Source: Hyphomicrobiales bacterium (GTDB taxonomy: Bacteria > Pseudomonadota > Alphaproteobacteria > Rhizobiales > Beijerinckiaceae). From it: DNA of 64,000 nt. Shown here one piece after another: positions 2,720 through 12,236 of the stretch. The notes beneath the pieces are model-generated. The model made no database searches. It was not told the origin of the DNA and saw only the letters and a program-made list of their open reading frames with translations. Position numbers and translations under genes: made by a program. How positions within the stretch are numbered: position 1 is the stretch's first letter; every line of letters starts with the position of its first letter. The stretch covers positions 1 through 64,000 of the forward strand of contig UBNE01000012.1 in the NCBI GenBank assembly GCA_900466745.1, read 5' to 3'.

Positions 2720-3071
2720 GCGCGGTGGATTCGCGCTCACGCCCGGACAGGCAGCCGACATCAGGATGCTGCCCGTCATGCTCGACGCCGCTCCACCGGC
2801 GAGTGAGCTTCTGGCCGACAAGGCCTATGACAGCGATCGGATCCGTGAGAATCTCATCGCAAGAGGCATGCGCCCGGTCATCCCCAACAAGGACCATCGC
2901 AGGTTCCTCCATCCCTTCGACCGCAAACGCTATCGCGCGCGCAATGCCATCGAGCGCATGTTCTGCCGCCTCAAAGACTTCAGGCGCATCGCAACCCGCT
3001 ACGACAAGCTTGCCAGAAATTATCTGGCCTCGCTCTGCCTTGCAGCGCTCGTCGCTCACGGGCTGCGTTGA
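2720..3071 (+). pseudogene. IS5-family transposase, 3' fragment
   Basis: The frame from about 2727 reads GFALTPGQAADIRMLPVMLD, LLADKAYDSDRIRENLIARG and VIPNKDHRRF, then the DDE glutamate block ARNAIERMFCRLKDFRRIAT and the C-terminal end of the family (ATRYDKLARNYLASLCLAAL). The first catalytic Asp and the whole N-terminal half are missing. The 5' break is at about 2720-2727, and no terminal inverted repeat was recognised on either side. This is a different IS5-family lineage from the element at 1444-2288. Confidence 0.85.
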
Positions 3072-3267
3072 GTCTCGACCCTAATGCCAGGGTGCCGGCA
3101 ATGGGCTTGCGGCCTAGCGAGTCGAATTTTTGCGCAACCCGTCAGACTCCGATTGCGACAGCTTTCATGCAATCAAAGGGAAGTCACACAATATCCCCAA
3201 CACCCCTTATTTAGATTAATTAAATAAACAATTACTATAATTTAGGAATAAAATTCAAGCTATTATA

Positions 3268-3966
3268 TTACTTCGTCGACGCCTCATACAGCACCTTCGT
3301 CTCGGCATTCATCGGATAGAGCCCCGGCAGCGAGGCGCCTTCGTCGACCTTGGTCATGATCCAGGCTTCCATGCGCTCCTGCTCGGGGGCCTCGGCAAGC
3401 ACCGCAGCGAGCAGCCCGGCCGGGATCAGCACCGCTCCATCCTGGTCGACGACGATGATATCGTTCGGGAACACCGCCACGCCGCCGCAGCCGATCGGCT
3501 CCTGCCAGGCGACGAAGGTCAGGCCCGCGACCGAGGGCGGGGCGGCGACGCCGCGGCACCAGACCGGAAGGTTGGTTTCGAGCACGCCGGCGACGTCGCG
3601 CACGACGCCGTCGGTGACCAGCGCCGCGACGCCCCGCTTCTGCATCCGGGCGCAGAGGATGTCGCCGAAGATGCCGGCATCGGTGACGCCCATCGCATCG
3701 ACCACCGCGACGCAGCCCTCGGGCATGGCCTCGATCGCGGCGCGGGTGGAGATCGGCGAGGCCCAGGAGGCCGGCGTCGCCAGATCCTCGCGGGCCGGTA
3801 CGAAGCGCAGCGTGAAGGCCGGGCCGACGAGGCGCGGCTGGCCGGGCCGCAGCGGCGCGGCGCCACGCAGCCAGACATTGCGCAGCCCCTTCTTCAGCAG
3901 GACCGTGGTCAGCGTCGCCGTCGAGACGGCCTTCAGGGTTTCGATCGCTTCGGCCGTCAACGTCAT
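3268..3966 (-). CDS. RraA-family protein (4-hydroxy-4-methyl-2-oxoglutarate aldolase-like)
   Basis: This 232-residue protein has the RraA/HMG-aldolase fold signature: GDILCARMQKRGVAALVTDG followed by VVRD (residues about 100-123), with the GD and DGxxRD motifs that bind metal and pyruvate in aldolases. The late block NDIIVVDQDGAVLIP is also typical. Members cleave 4-hydroxy-4-methyl-2-oxoglutarate or oxaloacetate, and the same fold is used by the RNase E inhibitor RraA. The catabolic context here favours an enzyme. It is the last gene of the minus-strand IclR-controlled cluster, 180 bp after the aroM-like gene, and may have its own promoter in that gap. Exact substrate unknown. Confidence 0.85.
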   Translation of the reverse strand: MTLTAEAIETLKAVSTATLTTVLLKKGLRNVWLRGAAPLRPGQPRLVGPAFTLRFVPAREDLATPASWASPISTRAAIEAMPEGCVAVVDAMGVTDAGIFGDILCARMQKRGVAALVTDGVVRDVAGVLETNLPVWCRGVAAPPSVAGLTFVAWQEPIGCGGVAVFPNDIIVVDQDGAVLIPAGLLAAVLAEAPEQERMEAWIMTKVDEGASLPGLYPMNAETKVLYEASTK

Positions 3967-4009
3967 CGGAAAATGCTCCTCGCTATCGCGGGAACGTTAC
4001 AGCAGCGGT

Positions 4010-4035
4010 CCCGAAAACGGCATGCGGTTTTCGGG
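4010..4035. repeat. Dispersed palindrome (cccgaaaac...gttttcggg)
   Basis: A 9-bp perfect stem with an 8-base loop lies between the RraA-family and AroM-family genes. It belongs to the same kind of intergenic palindrome as those at 16686, 21113, 29878 and 53017, which is common in Hyphomicrobiales genomes. Confidence 0.6.
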
Positions 4036-4146
4036 GCGATCCCATGCGAAAGCGGGAGGCCGGCCCGGCGAGGCAAAGCCCCTCCCCCGCCTCGCAGCCG
4101 GTCGGCAGCCCCCTCGGGATGAGGGCTCAGATGCCCGCAAAGCCTC

Positions 4147-4818
4147 TCAGACCAGTTCGGAGGCGAGCTTGGCGATCAGGCTGTTGGAGAGGATGACCGG
4201 CAGGCCCGCCGCTGCGGCCGCTCGCCGATGGCTCTCGACGAACCCCATGCAGTCCATCAGCAGAACCTCGGCACCACGGCGGCGGAGGTCCTCGGCCGCC
4301 GCGGTGACGGCACCTAGGTCGCCCTGGTAGGGCGAGGCCGCCGCGCAGATCGGGGCCGAGGCCAGCGGCGCCCATTTGCCGGCTTCGCTGTCGATCTGCT
4401 CGGCCAATGGCACAACGATGCCGAGCTGCGCGCCGCGGGTCAGCGCGGCCACCGTCGGCGGCAGGATGCGGTCGGGTTCGAGGAAGCGGGCTTGCTTCGT
4501 CGCGAGCGTCTCGAAATGCCCGGTGCAGAGCATCAGGATCGTGGTGCAGCCTTCGGCTTCCAGAGCGTTGAGCTTGCGCTGGGCCGCCGCCTCCGTGCGA
4601 GCCCGGTCGATGACCACGGAGGAGCCGTCCAGCAGCCTGGTGATGAGGACGGGCTTGCCCGGAACCGCCGCGAAATCCTCCTCGATCTCGCCGCGGCTCA
4701 GGCCGTCGAGGATGCCGGCATGGACGCGCGGCAGCTCGTCCGCCAGCACCACGTCGAGGATCGGGGTGATGTCGGCTCGCGGCGCCTGGCCGATCGTGAG
4801 GGTTCCGAGCTTGCCCAT
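4147..4818 (-). CDS. AroM-family protein, possible Asp/Glu/hydantoin racemase-like enzyme
   Basis: This 223-residue protein starts MGKLGTLTIGQAPRADI, the conserved N-terminus of the AroM family (first known as an ORF beside aroL in E. coli, function unknown). The ATG at 4818 was chosen because GGAAAGGAG lies just upstream and the longer frame is not conserved. Two cysteines stand in paired positions, Cys98 in LMLCTGHFE and Cys190 in LLMDCMGF. This matches the two-cysteine pattern of cofactor-independent Asp/Glu and hydantoin racemases. With a hydantoinase/oxoprolinase in the same cluster, a racemase-type role is an attractive inference but not shown. A 34-bp perfect palindrome sits in its upstream spacer. 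Confidence 0.8.
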   Translation of the reverse strand: MGKLGTLTIGQAPRADITPILDVVLADELPRVHAGILDGLSRGEIEEDFAAVPGKPVLITRLLDGSSVVIDRARTEAAAQRKLNALEAEGCTTILMLCTGHFETLATKQARFLEPDRILPPTVAALTRGAQLGIVVPLAEQIDSEAGKWAPLASAPICAAASPYQGDLGAVTAAAEDLRRRGAEVLLMDCMGFVESHRRAAAAAGLPVILSNSLIAKLASELV

Positions 4819-4841
4819 GACGATGCTCCTTTCCGGAAAGC

Positions 4842-4875
4842 GCGAAGCCCCGGGACGGCCGTCCCGGGGCTTCGC
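4842..4875. promoter_or_regulatory. 34-bp perfect palindrome between the OPT and aroM-like genes
   Basis: The sequence from 4842 to 4875 is its own exact reverse complement: 15-bp arms gcgaagccccgggac and gtcccggggcttcgc around a central ggcc. It begins 6 bp downstream of the OPT stop codon and ends 24 bp before the aroM-like start. In RNA it would form a very stable hairpin without a U tract. It could be an intra-operon attenuator, a 3'-end stabiliser for the transporter message, or a protein-binding palindrome. Confidence 0.7.
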
Positions 4876-4880
4876 CTGGT

Positions 4881-6554
4881 TCAGGGCTTGTGGAAGTTCT
4901 TGATGACCGAATCGAAGAAGGAGAAGATCGCGTCGCCCGCGATGACGCCCGCGGCGAAGACCTCCATGTCGCCCTCCCCGCTCGCGCCGCGCAGCTTCTC
5001 CCAGATAAGCCGGCAGACGATGCCGACCAGCACCGCCCAGCCCGCCATCGGGAAGGCGATCAGCAGGCCGGTGGCGAAGAGCACGCCGATCTGCCGCTTC
5101 GGCCCGCCGATGAATTGCAGGATCGCGCCGGGAATCGCCCACATGAAGAGCTGCCAGGCCACGCCCGGCGCGACGCCGGCCTTGATCGTCGCGGCATAGA
5201 CCTTGTCGACGGGCGCCACCAGATTGCGGTCGAAATAGGACTGGTAGGAGAACAGCACCACCGCGCCGGCGATGACGAAGGCGAACATCGCGGCGAAGAG
5301 CTGCTGGCGGCGGCCATCGCGCTCGAAGGCGGGATCGGCGCCGTTGCCGCGCAGCAGATAGCCGGCCTTGAGGTCGTAGCCCATATCGGCGAAGGCGGGG
5401 CCGGTCGCGGCCGAGAAGCCGACCAGCAGGGCGAGCGCCGGCATCGGGAAGCCGATCAGCATGCCGATGATCAGCGTGATCAGCGCCACGGCGAAGGCCG
5501 GGAACCAGCCGGAATGCATCGCGGCGAGGCCGACGATCAGCTCGTGCACATAGGCCGCGAAGGCGGCGTAGAGCACGAACAGGATCAGCATGCCGATCGA
5601 CATGTCGGTCATCAGCCCGCCGATCAGGGCGATGAACACCGCGATCACCAGATAGCCGATCGTGCCCAGCCCGAGCGCGCCGCGCACCTCGGCATCGGAG
5701 ACGCCGGCCTCGACCTCCGCCTGCCGCCTGGCCTCGCTGCGGTGGAACAGCAGCACGCCGACCTGCAGCAGCGCCACCAGCCCGGCGCCGATCATGAAGC
5801 CGTGCGGGATATAGGCGGCCATCAGATCGCCCTTGGGGATGATGGTCTCGAACATCGGGCCGCCGAAGAGCTGGCCGGAATAGCCGCGCAGCAGCAGGCC
5901 GACGCCGAACATCGTCAGCGCCCAGATATTGCCGATGAAGGCGACGCCGAAGGCCGACATCGGGATGCCGGTCACCGCCGTCGAGCCGGCGAAGCCGATC
6001 CAGGCGAGCGGTACCTTGACGAAGGAGACGACGATGCCGGTGACGAAGCCGACGCCCATCAGCACGGCCTTGCGGCCGCCCTCGTCGCCGGCCTTGATCG
6101 CCTCGGCGGCGGCGACGCCCGGCGGCCAGGCGCCCGTCGCCGGGAAGACGCGGGAATCGAACATCCGGTAGAGCAGATAGGCGTCGAGCAGCATCGCGAA
6201 GAAGGCGCCGACCAGCATCGGCAGCACGAGATCCGGCCGCCCGAGCAGCCAGGGAATGCCGACCGGCAGGAGCAGGCTGTTGGCCGCGCCGAAGGTGGCC
6301 GAGGAGATCGCGCTCTGGGCCAGGTTCTGCACATGGATCGAGCGGTAGCGCGCGAAAGCGGCGAGCGGCACGCGCGCCAGCGCCATGGCCGCGAGCGCGC
6401 CGATCAGCGAGGTGTTCGCCGTGATGCCGAGCGACACCAGAAGCTGCATGCCGATGATCGAGCCGAAGACGCAGAGAATCGCGATCAGCGCCAGCGTCGC
6501 CGGCTCGAACAGGCTGGGGTGCCGGTGAGGCACCCCTTCAGTCGGATTGGTCAT
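4881..6554 (-). CDS. OPT-family (oligopeptide-type) transporter
   Basis: This is a 557-residue polytopic inner-membrane protein with many hydrophobic segments (for example ALIAILCVFGSIIGMQLLVS at about 17-36 and the C-terminal WAVLVGIVCRLIWEKL). The pattern NSLLLPVGIPWLLGRPDLVL, DAYLLYRMFDSR and ATGAWPPGVAAAEAI resembles the conserved part of bacterial OPT-family proteins. OPT members carry small peptides or metal-chelates by proton coupling. The gene lies 55 bp after the fused hydantoinase/oxoprolinase gene on the same strand and probably supplies its substrate. Family is fairly sure; the transported compound is unknown. Confidence 0.85.
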   Translation of the reverse strand: MTNPTEGVPHRHPSLFEPATLALIAILCVFGSIIGMQLLVSLGITANTSLIGALAAMALARVPLAAFARYRSIHVQNLAQSAISSATFGAANSLLLPVGIPWLLGRPDLVLPMLVGAFFAMLLDAYLLYRMFDSRVFPATGAWPPGVAAAEAIKAGDEGGRKAVLMGVGFVTGIVVSFVKVPLAWIGFAGSTAVTGIPMSAFGVAFIGNIWALTMFGVGLLLRGYSGQLFGGPMFETIIPKGDLMAAYIPHGFMIGAGLVALLQVGVLLFHRSEARRQAEVEAGVSDAEVRGALGLGTIGYLVIAVFIALIGGLMTDMSIGMLILFVLYAAFAAYVHELIVGLAAMHSGWFPAFAVALITLIIGMLIGFPMPALALLVGFSAATGPAFADMGYDLKAGYLLRGNGADPAFERDGRRQQLFAAMFAFVIAGAVVLFSYQSYFDRNLVAPVDKVYAATIKAGVAPGVAWQLFMWAIPGAILQFIGGPKRQIGVLFATGLLIAFPMAGWAVLVGIVCRLIWEKLRGASGEGDMEVFAAGVIAGDAIFSFFDSVIKNFHKP

Positions 6555-6609
6555 GCCTTACGTCCCCTCTCATGCCCCTTGTCGGGCTATCGGTGTTTCG
6601 TCCCTTGCC

Positions 6610-9600
6610 TCAAGCAACCAGGATGCCGGCCTTGGCCTCGCCCACATCCTGCGTGGCATGCGCGCCCTGCACGCCGTAATCGCGCTTGGCCGCCTCGGGC
6701 GAGACCAGCCCGAGCGCGATGTCGCGCGCGATCGCCTCCCGCGAGCGCTCGGCGGCAGGGCCGTAGCCGGCGCCGCCGGCGAGCACGAGCTCGACGATCT
6801 CGTGCGGCTGCCTGACCTGGACCAGCTCGCCGGTGCCGACATCCTTCAGCACGTGGCCCTGCTCGTCGATGACCCGGCCGGAGGCGCCGCCGCCGGCCTT
6901 GCCGCCGAACAGCCCCGGGATCGGGTTGTTGACGCCCTCCGGATAGAGCGAGACCAGCGTCGGCAGGCCGTCATCGGAGAGCTTGCGCAGCCGCACGCGC
7001 TGGCCGAGGCCGCCGCGATGCTTTCCGGCGCCGCCGGAATCGGCGAGATAGGTTTTCTCGACCACCAACACCGGCACCCGCGATTCGAAGGTCTCGATCG
7101 AGGTGTTCGCGGCGGAGGTCGGGTAGAGCAGGCCCGACTTGCCGTCGCCCTGAGCCGAGCCGCCCTGGCCGCCGCCACAGAACAGCATGTCGGAATAGGT
7201 GTCGCCGGCCGCGTCCCGGCCATAGACGCTCGCCGCGACGGGCAGGCCGGTGAAGGCCTGGACCTGCCTTGGGGCAGCCTCCGACAAAGCGCGGAAGATG
7301 TTCGGCGCCAGATACCAGCCGGTGCGGGTGCGCAGGTTCACCGCTAGCGGCTTGTCGCAGTTCAGGATCGAGCCCTTCGGTGCCTCGACCGTGAAGGCGC
7401 GGTAGCAGCCGGCATTGCCGCGGACATTCGGCGTCAGCATGCATTTCAGCGGATAGGTCGCATGCGCCATCGTGTAGTTGAGCGTGCAGTTGAGCCCGCC
7501 CTGCGGGAGCTGCGGCGGGGCGCCGGCGAAGTCGAGATGGATCGTGTCGCCCTTCACCGTCAGCGCCAGCGGGTAATGCATCGGCGTGCCGAGCGGGTTG
7601 TTCGAGGCGGTGCCGTGATAGACCCCGTCCGGAATGGCGCGGATGGCGTCGCGCATCGCCTTCTCGGAACGGCTCTGCACGACATGGGCGAGCGCGCGCA
7701 AATCCTGCATGCCGTAATCAGTGAGGAAGGATTGCAGCCGCTCGGCGCCGATGGCGTTGGCCGCGACGAAGGAGTGCAGGTCGCCGAGCACCTGCTCGGA
7801 ATTGCGCACGTTTTCGCCGAGCAGGCGCACGAGGGTCTCGTTGATCTTGCCGGCCTCGTAGAGCTTCATCGGCGGGATCTGGAAGCCTTCCTCATAGATC
7901 TCGCGGGCGCGCAGCGAATCCTTGGTGCCGCCGATGTCGGAGACATGGCCGACCGTGCCCATCAGGCCGACGACGCGGTCGCCGAGGAAGACCGGCGTCA
8001 CCACTGCGATGTCGAAGAGATGGCCGGCGCAGAGCCAGGGATCGTTGGTGATCAGCACGTCGCCGGGCTTCAGCGTCTCGGCCGGATAGCGCTCCAGCAG
8101 CGCCTTGACCGCGCGCGGCAGCGTCAGGTTGAACACCGGCATGGCGCGGGGCGAATGCGCCAGCGTCTCGCCTTCGGGGTCGAGCAGCTCGCAGGCGAAG
8201 TCCTGCGCTTCCGAGATCACCAGCGAGAAGGCGGTGCGGCACACCGTCAGCCACATCTCCTCGACGACGTTGATCATCCGGCTCCACATGATCTCCAGCG
8301 AGATCGGATCGGCCTCGATCCGGCGCGCGGCCTCGGCCAGCGGCATGTCGGCGGTGATCGTGGTCTCGGCCGCGTTGGGCTGGGCGACATGGATGAGCAG
8401 GTTCAGCACATCATCGATGACGACGCTGTCGCCGGGCGGGACGATCGTGGTCGCCTCACGCTCCTCAATGATGGCCGGTCCCGCGACGGTGTCGCCGGAA
8501 CGCAGCGCGTAGCGGTCATAGACCTTCGCCTCGCTCCAACCGCCCTCGAACCAGGCCTTGCGGGTACCCTTGACCTTGGCAGAGGCATCGCCGCCGCCGG
8601 CCGCGCCGGAGAGCGACAAGGTCGGGACGGGACCGGCGCAGCGGACGCGGAAGTTGATCGCCTCCAGCCGGGCGCCCTCATAAACCGAGGTATAGCGGGC
8701 GGAATAAGCCTTGCTGAAGGCTTCGCGGATCGCGTCGAGGCTCGACGCGTCGATGGTGCCGGCGGGCAGCGGCACGGAGATGTCGTGCATCTGGCCGACG
8801 AGGCGCATATCGGCCGAGCGCTCGACCGTGACGTCGGCGGGCTTGACCCCGGCCTCGGTCAGGTGCTTGCGGCCTTCCTCCTCGAGCTGGCCGAGCAGCG
8901 CGTTGACGGCGGCGGCATCAAAACCTTCCGAGAACTCGACCGGCAGCGAGCGCACCATGTCGAAGGAGAGCGGCGCGGCGAGGAAGCCGAGCGCGGAGGC
9001 CGCGCCCGAGGCCGGCGGGATGATGACCTGCCTGACGCCGAGCACGCGGGCGACATCGACGGCGTGGGCCGGGCCGGCGCCGCCGAAGCCGACCATGGCG
9101 TAATGGCGCGGGTCCTTGCCCTTCTCGACGAGATGGACGCGGGCAGCGGCGCCCATGCTCTCGACCACGACCTTGTGGATGCCCCAGGCGGCTTCCTCGA
9201 CCGAGAGGCCGAGCGGCTCGGCCACGGTCGCGACGGCCTTGCGCGCCGCCTCCAGATCCAGCGCCATGCGCCCGCCGAGGAAGAACTTCGGATCGTAATA
9301 GCCGAGCACGAGATTGGCGTCGGTCACGGTCGGCCTGGTGCCGCCCATGCCGTAGCAGGCCGGACCCGGATCGGAGCCGGCCGAATGCGGGCCGACCTTG
9401 AGCAGGCCGACCTCGTCGATCGCGGCGATCGAGCCGCCGCCGGCGCCGATCTCGATCATGTCGATCACCGGCGCCTTGATCGGCAGGCCCGAGCCCTTGG
9501 CGAAGCGGTTGACGCGGCCGGCTTCCAGCATCGGCGCGATCTCGGCGCGGCCGTCCTCGATCATGCAGGCTTTTGCGGTGGTGCCGCCCATGTCGAAGGA

Positions 9601-10458
9601 GATCACGTCCTTATGGCCGGCAAGCTCGCCGAACAGGGCCGTGGCGAGGCCGCCGCCGGCCGGGCCGCTCTCCAGCAGGCGGATCGGGAAGGTGCGCGCC
9701 GTCTCGGGCGAAACCAGGCCGCCGGCCGAATGCATCAGCGTCAGCGAGCCGCGGAAGGAGCGGGCGGCGAGCTCGCGCTCCAATCGTTCCAGATAGCGGC
9801 GCATCAGCGGCTGGACATAGGCGTTGGCCGCCGTGGTGACGAAGCGCTGATATTCCCAGATCTCGGCCACGACCTCGCTCGACAGCGAGACGGTGAGCTC
9901 CGGGCAGGTCTCGCGGACGATGCGAGCCGCTTCCTGCTCATGGGCCGGGTTGCGGTAGCTGTTGAGGAAGCAGATCGCGACCGCCTCGCAGCCGGCGGCG
10001 GCGAGCTCGCGGGCGGCGTGGCGGACGGCCTCCGGATCGAGCGGGGTCACGATCTTGCCGTCACGGTCCATGCGCTCGGACACTTCCAGGCGCAGCTCGC
10101 GCGAGACCAGCGGATCGGGGAAGGTCAGGAACAGGTCGTAGATGTCGTAGCGCTGCTCCGTCCCCATTTCGAGGATGTCGCGAAAACCCTTGGTGGTGAT
10201 CAGGCCGAGCTTGGAGCCCTTGCGCTCGATCACCGCATTGGTGACCAGCGTCGTGCCATGGACGATGTCTCCGACATCGGCCAGCGTGATACCGGCCATC
10301 TCGGTCAGCTCGCCGAGGCCGATCAGCGCGGCCTCGGAGGGGTCGTGCGGGGTGGTCAGGCGCTTGTGCAGCCGGACCGAGCGCTCCTGCGAATCATAGA
10401 GGATGAAATCGGTGAAGGTGCCGCCGATGTCGAAGCCGATACGCCAACGATTGCTCAT
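6610..10458 (-). CDS. Fused hydantoinase A/B (5-oxoprolinase-type) ATP-dependent amidohydrolase
   Basis: This 1282-residue protein joins HyuA (about 1-690) and HyuB (about 710-1282) in one chain, the layout of ATP-dependent 5-oxoprolinase. Residues 10-17 are DIGGTFTD, the phosphate-binding loop of the ASKHA-fold HyuA part. VISFDMGGTTAKACMIEDG is the second phosphate motif and MIEIGAGGGSIA follows. HyuB shows ITNDPWLCAGHLFDIAVVTP and the C-terminal block GGAGKHRGGLGQ. Family enzymes hydrolyse cyclic amides (5-oxoproline, hydantoins) with ATP. The start ATG overlaps the iclR-like stop by four bases (10455-10458), so the two genes are translationally coupled. Substrate cannot be fixed from sequence. 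Confidence 0.9.
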   Translation of the reverse strand: MSNRWRIGFDIGGTFTDFILYDSQERSVRLHKRLTTPHDPSEAALIGLGELTEMAGITLADVGDIVHGTTLVTNAVIERKGSKLGLITTKGFRDILEMGTEQRYDIYDLFLTFPDPLVSRELRLEVSERMDRDGKIVTPLDPEAVRHAARELAAAGCEAVAICFLNSYRNPAHEQEAARIVRETCPELTVSLSSEVVAEIWEYQRFVTTAANAYVQPLMRRYLERLERELAARSFRGSLTLMHSAGGLVSPETARTFPIRLLESGPAGGGLATALFGELAGHKDVISFDMGGTTAKACMIEDGRAEIAPMLEAGRVNRFAKGSGLPIKAPVIDMIEIGAGGGSIAAIDEVGLLKVGPHSAGSDPGPACYGMGGTRPTVTDANLVLGYYDPKFFLGGRMALDLEAARKAVATVAEPLGLSVEEAAWGIHKVVVESMGAAARVHLVEKGKDPRHYAMVGFGGAGPAHAVDVARVLGVRQVIIPPASGAASALGFLAAPLSFDMVRSLPVEFSEGFDAAAVNALLGQLEEEGRKHLTEAGVKPADVTVERSADMRLVGQMHDISVPLPAGTIDASSLDAIREAFSKAYSARYTSVYEGARLEAINFRVRCAGPVPTLSLSGAAGGGDASAKVKGTRKAWFEGGWSEAKVYDRYALRSGDTVAGPAIIEEREATTIVPPGDSVVIDDVLNLLIHVAQPNAAETTITADMPLAEAARRIEADPISLEIMWSRMINVVEEMWLTVCRTAFSLVISEAQDFACELLDPEGETLAHSPRAMPVFNLTLPRAVKALLERYPAETLKPGDVLITNDPWLCAGHLFDIAVVTPVFLGDRVVGLMGTVGHVSDIGGTKDSLRAREIYEEGFQIPPMKLYEAGKINETLVRLLGENVRNSEQVLGDLHSFVAANAIGAERLQSFLTDYGMQDLRALAHVVQSRSEKAMRDAIRAIPDGVYHGTASNNPLGTPMHYPLALTVKGDTIHLDFAGAPPQLPQGGLNCTLNYTMAHATYPLKCMLTPNVRGNAGCYRAFTVEAPKGSILNCDKPLAVNLRTRTGWYLAPNIFRALSEAAPRQVQAFTGLPVAASVYGRDAAGDTYSDMLFCGGGQGGSAQGDGKSGLLYPTSAANTSIETFESRVPVLVVEKTYLADSGGAGKHRGGLGQRVRLRKLSDDGLPTLVSLYPEGVNNPIPGLFGGKAGGGASGRVIDEQGHVLKDVGTGELVQVRQPHEIVELVLAGGAGYGPAAERSREAIARDIALGLVSPEAAKRDYGVQGAHATQDVGEAKAGILVA

Positions 10459-11240
10459 GGAGCGGTCTCCGGGATTGAGGGATTCAGGGGAAAGAAGCGC
10501 TTGTCCTGGGTCAGGGCCGCGATCTCGGCGGCGCCCTCCCCGAGCGAGCGGATGATGGCGAGGCGCTCGGCCGGCTCGACCGTGGCGGCCGGGAAGGAGA
10601 TGCAGAGCGCGACCTCGTCGCCCGTGGCGGGGTCGCCCACCGCGATGGAGATGGCACGCACGCCGCGCACCGCCTCGTCATGCGATTCGGCGAAGCCGGC
10701 GCCGCGGACGCGGGCCAGCCGGGCGAGCAGCTCGTCCATGTCCCGCGGCGCGGTCTCGGAGGGCGCGGTGAAGCCGGCCGGATAGAGCGCGCGGACCTCG
10801 TCGTCGGTCAGCCGGGCGAGCAGGGCGCGGCCCGTGCTGGACGCGAAGGCGGGAATGCGGTCGCCGATCGCGGTCACGACCCTGAGCGCGTGGCGGCCCG
10901 GATGGGCGGTGACGCCGATGATCTCCTCGCCGCGCCGGACACTGATATAGCCCGTATGGCCGATCCGGTCCGAGATGCTTCCGACCACGGCGTCGGCCCG
11001 GTCGATCAGCGAGGCGGCAAAGCGGTAGAGCTGCCCGACCTGGTTGAGCAGCAGCGAGGGGCGGTAGCGCTTGCTGTCGCCGATGGTCTCGAGGAAGCCC
11101 TCGTCGCGCATCGACCTGAGCAGGCGCGAGGCATTGCTCTTCGGCATGCCCAGCAAGGCGACGAGATCCGTGACGGTGACGTCATGCCGCGTGCTGGAGA
11201 AGCAGCGAAGCACATCCGCGGCCGCCGACAGGATCGTCAT
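10455..11240 (-). CDS. IclR-family transcriptional regulator
   Basis: The 261-residue protein has an N-terminal winged helix-turn-helix (about 19-48: TVTDLVALLGMPKSNASRLL) and a C-terminal GAF-like IclR effector domain with VRGVRAISIAVGDPATGDEV. IclR proteins are usually local repressors or activators of catabolic genes that respond to the substrate or an intermediate. It is the first gene of the cluster and overlaps the hyuA/hyuB start by ATGA. A perfect palindrome carrying the classical IclR half-sites lies 26 bp upstream of its start, which suggests autoregulation of the whole unit. Confidence 0.92.
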   Translation of the reverse strand: MTILSAAADVLRCFSSTRHDVTVTDLVALLGMPKSNASRLLRSMRDEGFLETIGDSKRYRPSLLLNQVGQLYRFAASLIDRADAVVGSISDRIGHTGYISVRRGEEIIGVTAHPGRHALRVVTAIGDRIPAFASSTGRALLARLTDDEVRALYPAGFTAPSETAPRDMDELLARLARVRGAGFAESHDEAVRGVRAISIAVGDPATGDEVALCISFPAATVEPAERLAIIRSLGEGAAEIAALTQDKRFFPLNPSIPETAP

Positions 11241-11252
11241 TCTTCCGCCCCA

Positions 11253-11285
11253 GGAAGTTCCAAAAAATGGAACTTAAGTTCCATT
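11253..11285. promoter_or_regulatory. Predicted IclR operator (perfect 20-bp palindrome plus extra half-site)
   Basis: aatggaacttaagttccatt at 11266-11285 is a perfect palindrome. Its core TGGAACTTAAGTTCCA matches the IclR-family box form TGGAA-N-TTCCA. A further short inverted site ggaagttcc lies at 11253-11261 on the gene side. The block is centred about 35 bp upstream of the IclR-family start codon, where it would cover the promoter. Confidence 0.8.
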
Positions 11286-11615
11286 AACAGAAACATGACA
11301 CCGAATCCGAACCGCGTCAATCGGCCGCTGGGGCGCATTCGCCACCCTGTCGCGGTCATCCGGCACGGCATGAAGCGACGATCCGGGTTTCAAGCCGGAG
11401 CGCTCACGGTCGGGGCTGGGCATGGGTCCCTGATCCGCGCCGCGGAGCCCGTCCCTGCCGGAAGCGGGGCCGAACCGAGAGCGGCCTGTGCGGGGCGGCG
11501 GCGCAGGAGAGGAAGCGCGGAGGAAAGGCGCCGGCGGCGCCGGAGTTCCGGCTGGCGCGGCAGGGCTACGCGACCCGGCCCGCCAATGGTGCCGGCGGCA
11601 GCGGCGGGCCGCCGC
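11286..11615. other. Intergenic region without a recognisable gene
   Basis: These 330 bases separate the iclR operator from the 3' end of the luxR-type gene. The half near the operator is of ordinary composition and the rest is very GC-rich (runs such as gccggcggcgccgg). A minus-strand open frame here shows no conserved motif and arginine-rich composition, so it is treated as noise. The upstream promoter elements of the iclR cluster probably lie in its first 100 bases. Confidence 0.5.
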
Positions 11616-12236
11616 TCAGCGCGGCTCCTCGACATAGGTCGCGACGAAGCGAACCAGCTCGCTCTGGCGGGCCGTTCCGGTCTTGGCGAAGAGCCGCTGG
11701 AGATGAGTGCGGGCCGTGGTCGGAGCGATGCCGAGCCGCCTGGCGGCGATGACGGTGTCGAGCCCCTCGACGATCAGGGCCAGCATGCGCTCCTCCGTCG
11801 GCGTCAGGCCGCAGGCCCGCGCGACCTGGCCGCGCTTGCGGCCGATGGCGGCCTCGGGATCGTCCACCGTCAGGACGAAGAGGTCGATGCTCTCCAGATG
11901 AACCGCGTCGATGGCGACCTGCCGGCCGCCGGCGAGCGACAGGGGCAGCCGGACCTCGCCCGGAGCCCCGCCGGCAGGGCAGCGCTTCAGCCAGAGCTGG
12001 AGGCGGGCCATGAAATCCTTGTCCGCCGCCGTGAAACGGTCCGGCCCGCCCAGCCCCTCGCCCGACAGGCTCCGGGCACCGCGATTGCTGAACGCGACGT
12101 TGAGATGGGCATCGATGACGAAGACGGCTTTCGAGGAGGTGCAGCCCGTCTCGGAGGCGGGCAGGCCGCGGGCCGGGAGCGGCCGGCCGCAGGCATGGCT
12201 GGGAACCGAGAACTGGAGCGACATCGAGCTATCCAT
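11616..12236 (-). CDS. LuxR-type HTH regulator without receiver domain
   Basis: The protein has 206 residues. Its C-terminal 65 residues form a LuxR/FixJ-type helix-turn-helix: GLTPTEERMLALIVEGLDTV, IAARRLGIAPTTARTHLQRL, FAKTGTARQSELVRF. The middle (about 36-120, AVFVIDAHLNVAFSNRGARS) looks like a small PAS-like sensor. There is no aspartate-containing receiver domain. The start is uncertain, since Met5 is also possible. It is alone on its strand with 196 bp to anmK. The signal it senses is unknown. Confidence 0.8.
   Translation of the reverse strand: MDSSMSLQFSVPSHACGRPLPARGLPASETGCTSSKAVFVIDAHLNVAFSNRGARSLSGEGLGGPDRFTAADKDFMARLQLWLKRCPAGGAPGEVRLPLSLAGGRQVAIDAVHLESIDLFVLTVDDPEAAIGRKRGQVARACGLTPTEERMLALIVEGLDTVIAARRLGIAPTTARTHLQRLFAKTGTARQSELVRFVATYVEEPR

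Follow-up and report, generated by a model that had tools for sequence, protein, structure and literature searches.

A conserved IclR-HyuAB-OPT-AroM gene set in Beijerinckiaceae and its possible role in the use of cyclic amides

Gene content and conservation of the locus

The window analysed here is a 64,000-nucleotide stretch from Hyphomicrobiales bacterium, a soil organism of the family Beijerinckiaceae, comprising positions 1 to 64,000 of contig UBNE01000012.1 in GenBank assembly GCA_900466745.1. Near its start lies a gene cluster for an IclR-family regulator, a fused HyuA-HyuB protein (HyuAB), an OPT-family importer, an AroM protein and an RraA-like protein (Table 1). An earlier note on this DNA had reported five same-strand genes, an ATGA overlap, a 55-bp gap and an IclR box, and all of these were confirmed. 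The five genes are on the minus strand, and each gene product exceeds a curated Pfam cut-off. The iclR and hyuAB genes overlap by 4 bases (ATGA), and the gaps that follow HyuAB, OPT and AroM are 55, 62 and 180 bases, respectively.

Table 1. Location of the genes and other features discussed in the text; coordinates are those of the window unless preceded by a locus number.
Feature	Location	Strand	Remarks
IclR-type operator	11257-11283	.	GTTCCAAAAAATGGAAC at 11257-11273 overlapping TGGAACTTAAGTTCCA at 11268-11283
IclR-family regulator, first gene	11240-10455	-	261 aa; PF01614, PF09339
Fused HyuA-HyuB, ATP-dependent cyclic-amide hydrolase family	10458-6610	-	1282 aa; four Pfam domains
OPT-family importer	6554-4881	-	557 aa; PF03169
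OPT-AroM gap with hairpin	4819-4880		GCGAAGCCCCGGGACGGCCGTCCCGGGGCTTCGC
AroM, racemase-like, Cys98 and Cys190	4818-4147	-	223 aa; PF07302/NF007788
RraA-like gene, neighbour, judged to lie outside the conserved operon	3966-3268	-	232 aa; NF006093 over cut-off
LuxR-type helix-turn-helix gene	11616-12236	-
IS5-like transposase fragment	2766-3071
AroM-LuxR fusions, both catalytic cysteines replaced	L124:4900-5973; L125:4946-5956; L125:20132-21091; L095:10274-11356; L096:9609-10649

Among 61 genomes of the same genus (that of the window included), OPT was found in 30, a strong AroM match in 30 and both in 29; an AroM fragment of 39 residues was present in one further genome and weak AroM matches in two. 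Twenty of the 29 strong same-genus AroM loci other than the window were compared. The order IclR-HyuAB-OPT-AroM, in one direction, is found in 19 of the 20, and the remaining locus ends at a contig edge. In two of the 19, AroM had been missed by the open reading frame caller and was placed by genome search (L068 and L074 are examples of such misses). In 17 of these 19 loci, iclR and hyuAB again overlap by 4 bases.

The RraA-like gene follows the operon only in the window and in two of the 20 loci (L068 and L069). Relatives with 75-84% identity occupy other positions in other genomes of the genus, five of which (G660, G661, G666, G673 and G676) also carry the operon. As its linkage to the other four genes is not conserved, the RraA-like gene, adjacent on the same strand at a distance of 180 bases, was rejected as a member of the operon or pathway. 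Thus, of the five-gene synteny named as a test in the earlier note, four genes hold, and the RraA protein is not supported as the last step of the route proposed there. The RraA-like protein also falls below the cut-offs for HMG/CHA aldolase (LigK/PcmE), with 82 against 304.5 for TIGR02798 and 86.8 against 179 for NF006731, and includes a D-X20-R-D motif, a typical feature, from residue 102. Judged by gene order, the conserved unit is a real, operon-like set of four genes, IclR-HyuAB-OPT-AroM, behind one operator.

The operator consists of two overlapping palindromes before iclR, the first being GTTCCA-N5-TGGAAC. The exact form of this pattern occurs at a single site in the 4.49-Mb genome, which is the operator itself. 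When one mismatch was allowed, there were 4 matches per strand as compared with 11 for a reversed-pattern control, hence such matches carry no meaning. A looser form of the palindrome accompanies iclR at 43 of the 57 places examined (the window included, with some genomes counted twice), among them loci of Phyllobacterium, Inquilinus, Pandoraea, Achromobacter and Serratia. It is absent at the other 14, which include L068, the nearest relative of the window; in the two of these that were inspected (L068 and L078) palindromes are present but with mismatches. For comparison, 87 loose-form sites were counted over 120 loci totalling 2.33 Mb, a figure that includes the real ones; of the 45 strict matches in these loci, 39 lie at most 300 bases from a called iclR start. 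The IclR protein itself scores below the cut-off of every NCBIfam model matched.

A scan of positions 2900-11700 for promoters and terminators gave sites no commoner than in shuffled sequences. The gap between OPT and AroM holds a long near-perfect hairpin without a T run, which could reduce expression of AroM.

Properties of the encoded proteins

HyuAB includes the motifs DIGGTFTD at residue 10, DMGGT at 289 and GSDPGP at 361, and an intact metal tetrad (D753, H813, D816 and H838). The three ATP motifs and the Asp-His-Asp-His metal site assign it to the ATP-dependent hydantoinase/oxoprolinase superfamily as delimited in PMC8453981, and both features are shared with the caprolactamase CapAB covered there. 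The caprolactamase alpha subunit is also the top-scoring NCBIfam model for HyuAB, which speaks for degradation of a lactam or xenobiotic by a caprolactamase-like route. However, HyuAB scores far below the cut-off of 1000 for the CapA and CapB equivalogs (560.7 and 233.6 bits), and its subunits are fused. There is no CC anywhere in the protein, so the vicinal Cys410-Cys411 pair of CapB and its disulfide are missing, and the position of CapB Tyr136 aligns to a gap. HyuAB was therefore rejected as a caprolactamase, and a lactam route of this kind is considered improbable.

OPT carriers transport peptides, which would suit the use of 5-oxoproline or pyroglutamyl peptides, with HyuAB as a fused 5-oxoprolinase of the eukaryotic kind. 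The fused A-B order is the feature of HyuAB that agrees with this assignment and is that of eukaryotic 5-oxoprolinases (PMC8453981); no other feature agrees. The genome further encodes a PxpA homologue (G000:C26:17667-18380; PxpB and PxpC were not checked) and a second fused HyuAB of 1198 aa that is 32% identical to the first (L222:6992-10585; G000:C19). A pyroglutamyl peptidase did not turn up among approximately 35 scanned neighbour proteins of related loci. The pyroglutamyl substrate suggested in the earlier note is weakened, and probably wrong, because of the PxpA homologue, the second fused HyuAB and the dipeptidases encoded at related loci (see below), and the 5-oxoproline route is regarded as unlikely.

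AroM exceeds the curated cut-offs of both PF07302 (232.5 against 23.8 bits) and NF007788 (245.4 against 198 bits). A predicted Asp/Glu-racemase fold and two invariant cysteines, Cys98 and Cys190, assign it to the Asp/Glu/hydantoin racemase superfamily, and AroM may work as a racemase-like member of it. A sequence search for a relative with a solved structure gave a chance-level match alone (E 0.68). Among 75 OPT-linked AroM proteins, in a survey that leaves out minus-strand rows of the short loci L001-L067, four lack both cysteines, and all four are fusions to a LuxR-type domain. AroM is patchily distributed: within the order, 17 of the 297 genomes searched gave a match, and within the phylum 14 of 398. 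AroM proteins were described as experimentally uncharacterised in PMC11055893 (2024), which cites the sequencing of E. coli aroM in 1986. Close AroM homologues carry names that suggest Bosea as the genus of the host.

Racemases also operate in the use of hydantoins, and that of Pseudomonas sp. NS671 is HyuE. The hyuABC system of this strain, of which HyuAB and HyuC are covered in PMC8453981, resembles the set studied here in combining a racemase with ATP-dependent HyuA and HyuB. In the window, on the other hand, HyuAB is fused, AroM takes the place of HyuE, there is an OPT carrier, and no HyuC was found adjacent. A hydantoin route, with AroM as the racemase, HyuAB as an ATP-dependent hydantoinase and a carbamoylase encoded elsewhere, would draw on the same enzyme classes; DUF917 proteins of relatives also match thiohydantoin-desulfurase models, though under the cut-off (291.4 against 440). 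Against it, no HyuC-type gene is among the proteins scanned at the window operon. Of four M20 proteins from related loci, two have no hydantoinase or carbamoylase match at 1e-8, one reaches 35.4 against a cut-off of 204, and one is led by the dipeptidase PepV (among the best 25 families). The hydantoin route is considered unlikely.

The OPT protein belongs to its family by PF03169 (84.5 bits against a cut-off of 25.8), and its nearest relatives are from Bosea. A sequence search for a solved-structure relative gave none (E up to 1). In other organisms, carriers of the OPT/YSL type bring in metal chelates, and the importer might take up a metallophore or opine for processing of the ligand by HyuAB and AroM. 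As no gene pointing to such compounds was seen among the approximately 35 scanned neighbour proteins, a small part of all neighbours, this is held to be very improbable.

Exchange of HyuAB and DUF1177 around the importer

OPT relatives were collected by an alignment-based search, and the best 80 of at least 368, a sample that leans to close relatives and Bosea, were examined for neighbouring genes by tblastn. HyuA/B is present at 36 of these loci and DUF1177 at 40; only two have both and six neither, hence the two are near-exclusive alternatives. AroM is found at 55 of the 80 loci, which include 18 of the 36 with HyuA/B and 38 of the 40 with DUF1177. DUF1177, a Pfam family without an assigned function, models as an aminopeptidase fold and often lies beside dipeptidases.

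The order IclR-OPT-DUF1177-AroM occurs in many gamma- and betaproteobacteria. In 16 such loci there is also an S51 dipeptidase, of which the one scanned exceeds the PepE cut-off, and some include a second racemase. Among Bacilli, L168 exemplifies the arrangement PucR-racemase-EamA-OPT-DUF917-DUF1177-AroM-M29, and others have separate HyuA, HyuB, IclR and OPT genes.

On a maximum-likelihood tree of 78 OPT sequences, the state must have changed from HyuAB to DUF1177 or back at least three times; the tree was rooted at the midpoint only, and three changes could equal one gain and two losses. The alternation was judged by the tree, as the Fisher test ignores relatedness. Since at least three changes are needed, two unrelated hydrolase sets have been exchanged around one importer, which argues for identical or similar substrates of the two.

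Taken with the protein assignments, this points to an operon that would import a small cyclic amide derived from peptides, invert its stereochemistry and open it with ATP, the likeliest compound being a cyclic dipeptide; we give this reading about an even chance. The OPT protein would import the compound, most probably a 2,5-diketopiperazine (cyclic dipeptide) or something closely related, for instance a hydantoin or a cyclic imide. AroM would invert an acidic alpha-carbon by a two-cysteine mechanism and so make both stereo-forms usable, and HyuAB would activate the ring amide with ATP and hydrolyse it at the metal site; the linear dipeptide or amino acid released would pass into general metabolism. 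IclR would respond to a pathway compound at its single operator. In many other bacteria, where importer and AroM are the same, hydrolysis would fall to DUF1177, frequently accompanied by S51 or M29 peptidases. The outline of import, racemase-like step and ATP-driven ring opening given in the earlier note is thus retained without its RraA step.

Several observations weigh against this reading. None of the seven proteins in or beside the window operon is a dipeptidase or resembles a cyclodipeptide oxidase (CDO); for the latter, the proteins scanned for similarity to nitroreductases were the fragment at 2766-3071 and the products of the genes of 3268-12236, and the search for CDO did not extend to the rest of the window and genome. 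A nitroreductase near L163, with a relative in L159, matches an NADPH nitroreductase model best and is under the cut-off. A sign in favour of cyclic Xaa-Pro compounds would be an M24 peptidase of the Xaa-Pro type, yet one lies near OPT at only two of the 80 loci (L142 and L172), L159 having a weak, distant match. Half of the HyuAB loci have no AroM, which is therefore not essential to this version, and in the order some AroM genes adjoin DUF917, a HyuA-like gene and an ABC carrier instead of this OPT. Two of the six loci with neither hydrolase are on short pieces (L126 and L138); at another, L131, an MFS carrier and a FAD-binding enzyme follow OPT, and relatives of both are found in L136, which likewise has neither HyuAB nor DUF1177. 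Finally, any lactam is possible for HyuAB, and OPT families also carry metal chelates.

In the open literature, in which subscription papers are thinly covered so that a negative result is weak, PMC11055893 was the sole directly relevant paper found on AroM, OPT, HyuAB or DUF1177, the others being the caprolactamase papers PMC6061476 and PMC8453981. The earlier statement that no pathway with this set is described stands for this literature with one exception: PMC11055893 (Nat Commun 2024) reports that AroM and OPT genes are among those enriched in CDO-encoding clusters. Those without a cyclodipeptide synthase have AroM, OPT, DUF917, hydantoin racemase and peptidase genes in common with the loci described here, whereas no CDO gene is among the proteins scanned in this work. 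An isomerase role for AroM was already proposed by its authors; the available portion makes no mention of the IclR-HyuAB-OPT-AroM operon, the DUF1177 exchange, the E. coli locus or the LuxR fusions.

AroM of enterobacteria and AroM-LuxR fusions

AroM of E. coli belongs to the same family (PF07302) as that of the window. The gene order in E. coli K-12 is proC-yaiI-aroL-yaiA-aroM-ppnP-rdgC-mak. In L099, Pantoea latae (L164) and P. septica (L175), the order is the same with IclR-OPT-DUF1177 inserted between yaiA and aroM, and Serratia loci agree with it over the part compared. The E. coli aroM site (K-12, L188) is thus that of the IclR-OPT-DUF1177-AroM genes in Pantoea, as compared with L099, L164, L175, L156, L184, L185 and L249. 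K-12 AroM is 40-45% identical to the OPT-linked enterobacterial AroM proteins and 33% to that of the window, from which it further differs in being an orphan without IclR, OPT or DUF1177 and in having serine for the first cysteine.

Fifteen enterobacterial loci were compared: nine of one family from the phylum search, K-12, and five from the OPT search, in which OPT is present by selection. Cys98 is kept in all six loci with OPT and DUF1177 and replaced by serine in all eight without IclR, OPT and DUF1177, K-12 included. The remaining locus, L249, has IclR, AroM and a loose-form palindrome without OPT or DUF1177 and keeps Cys98; the rule that every enterobacterial AroM with Cys98 sits with OPT therefore fails once. 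The second cysteine is retained in all 15. No match better than E 0.71 to OPT or DUF1177 remnants was found in the K-12 aroM region. This pattern is what a stepwise decay would be expected to give, and L249, with IclR and Cys98 kept and OPT and DUF1177 gone, looks intermediate; the loci are, however, related to one another. Alternatively, the module may have been gained in the OPT-bearing enterobacteria instead of lost in the others.

At two loci, L124 (Rhizobiales bacterium 65-9) and L125 (Microvirga), the gene before HyuAB-OPT-AroM is not iclR but one for a fusion of an AroM domain to a LuxR-type helix-turn-helix. A database search with one fusion gave 459 matches, the best 120 of which were compared; these are at least 53% identical to the query and not independent. 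Both cysteines are missing in all 120, position 98 being Ser in 112 and Thr in 8, and position 190 Ser in 119 and Ala in one. AroM has 17 other conserved positions, of which 11 (10, 13, 14, 35, 37, 38, 99, 100, 133, 137 and 141) are identical in at least 117 of the 120, and positions 11 and 16 in 108 and 113, respectively; positions 8, 163, 189 and 192, two of which adjoin the second cysteine, mostly differ. The more distant fusions of L095, L096 and L124 likewise lack both cysteines.

At E 1e-30, fusions were found in two of 297 genomes of the order, both already among the loci, and six records with a fusion are plasmids. In three plasmids inspected, the fusion lies beside HyuA-like genes and, variously, DUF917, M20 peptidases, a peptide ABC carrier, AroM or OPT. 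L138, a short piece, holds the end of a fusion with AroM and OPT after it. As the cysteines are lost while 11 of the 17 other positions are nearly unchanged, the fusions probably sense the ligand of AroM, as a sensor made from the enzyme. If so, identifying the ligand of a fusion should show what the AroM enzyme acts on.

A wider proposal, to which we give somewhat less than an even chance, is that OPT and AroM form the basis of a system, spread across phyla, that takes up and epimerises cyclic peptides or cyclic amides of a similar kind, and in which HyuAB and DUF1177 would be interchangeable amide-openers. E. coli aroM would then be a relic left behind aroL after loss of IclR-OPT-DUF1177 and of the first catalytic cysteine, and the AroM-LuxR fusions, with both cysteines replaced, would be sensors controlling the same kinds of genes. 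The operon ties AroM and DUF1177 to testable chemistry with named partners, and the related sets in very different bacteria hint at the system to which E. coli aroM once belonged.

Two further features flank the gene cluster in the window. A LuxR-type helix-turn-helix gene lies upstream of iclR on the same strand; a gene of 203-207 aa, forming one cluster, has a similar position in L068, L069 and L070 and, judged without alignment, is probably the same gene. On the other side, an IS5-like transposase fragment lies beside the RraA-like gene, close to the contig start.

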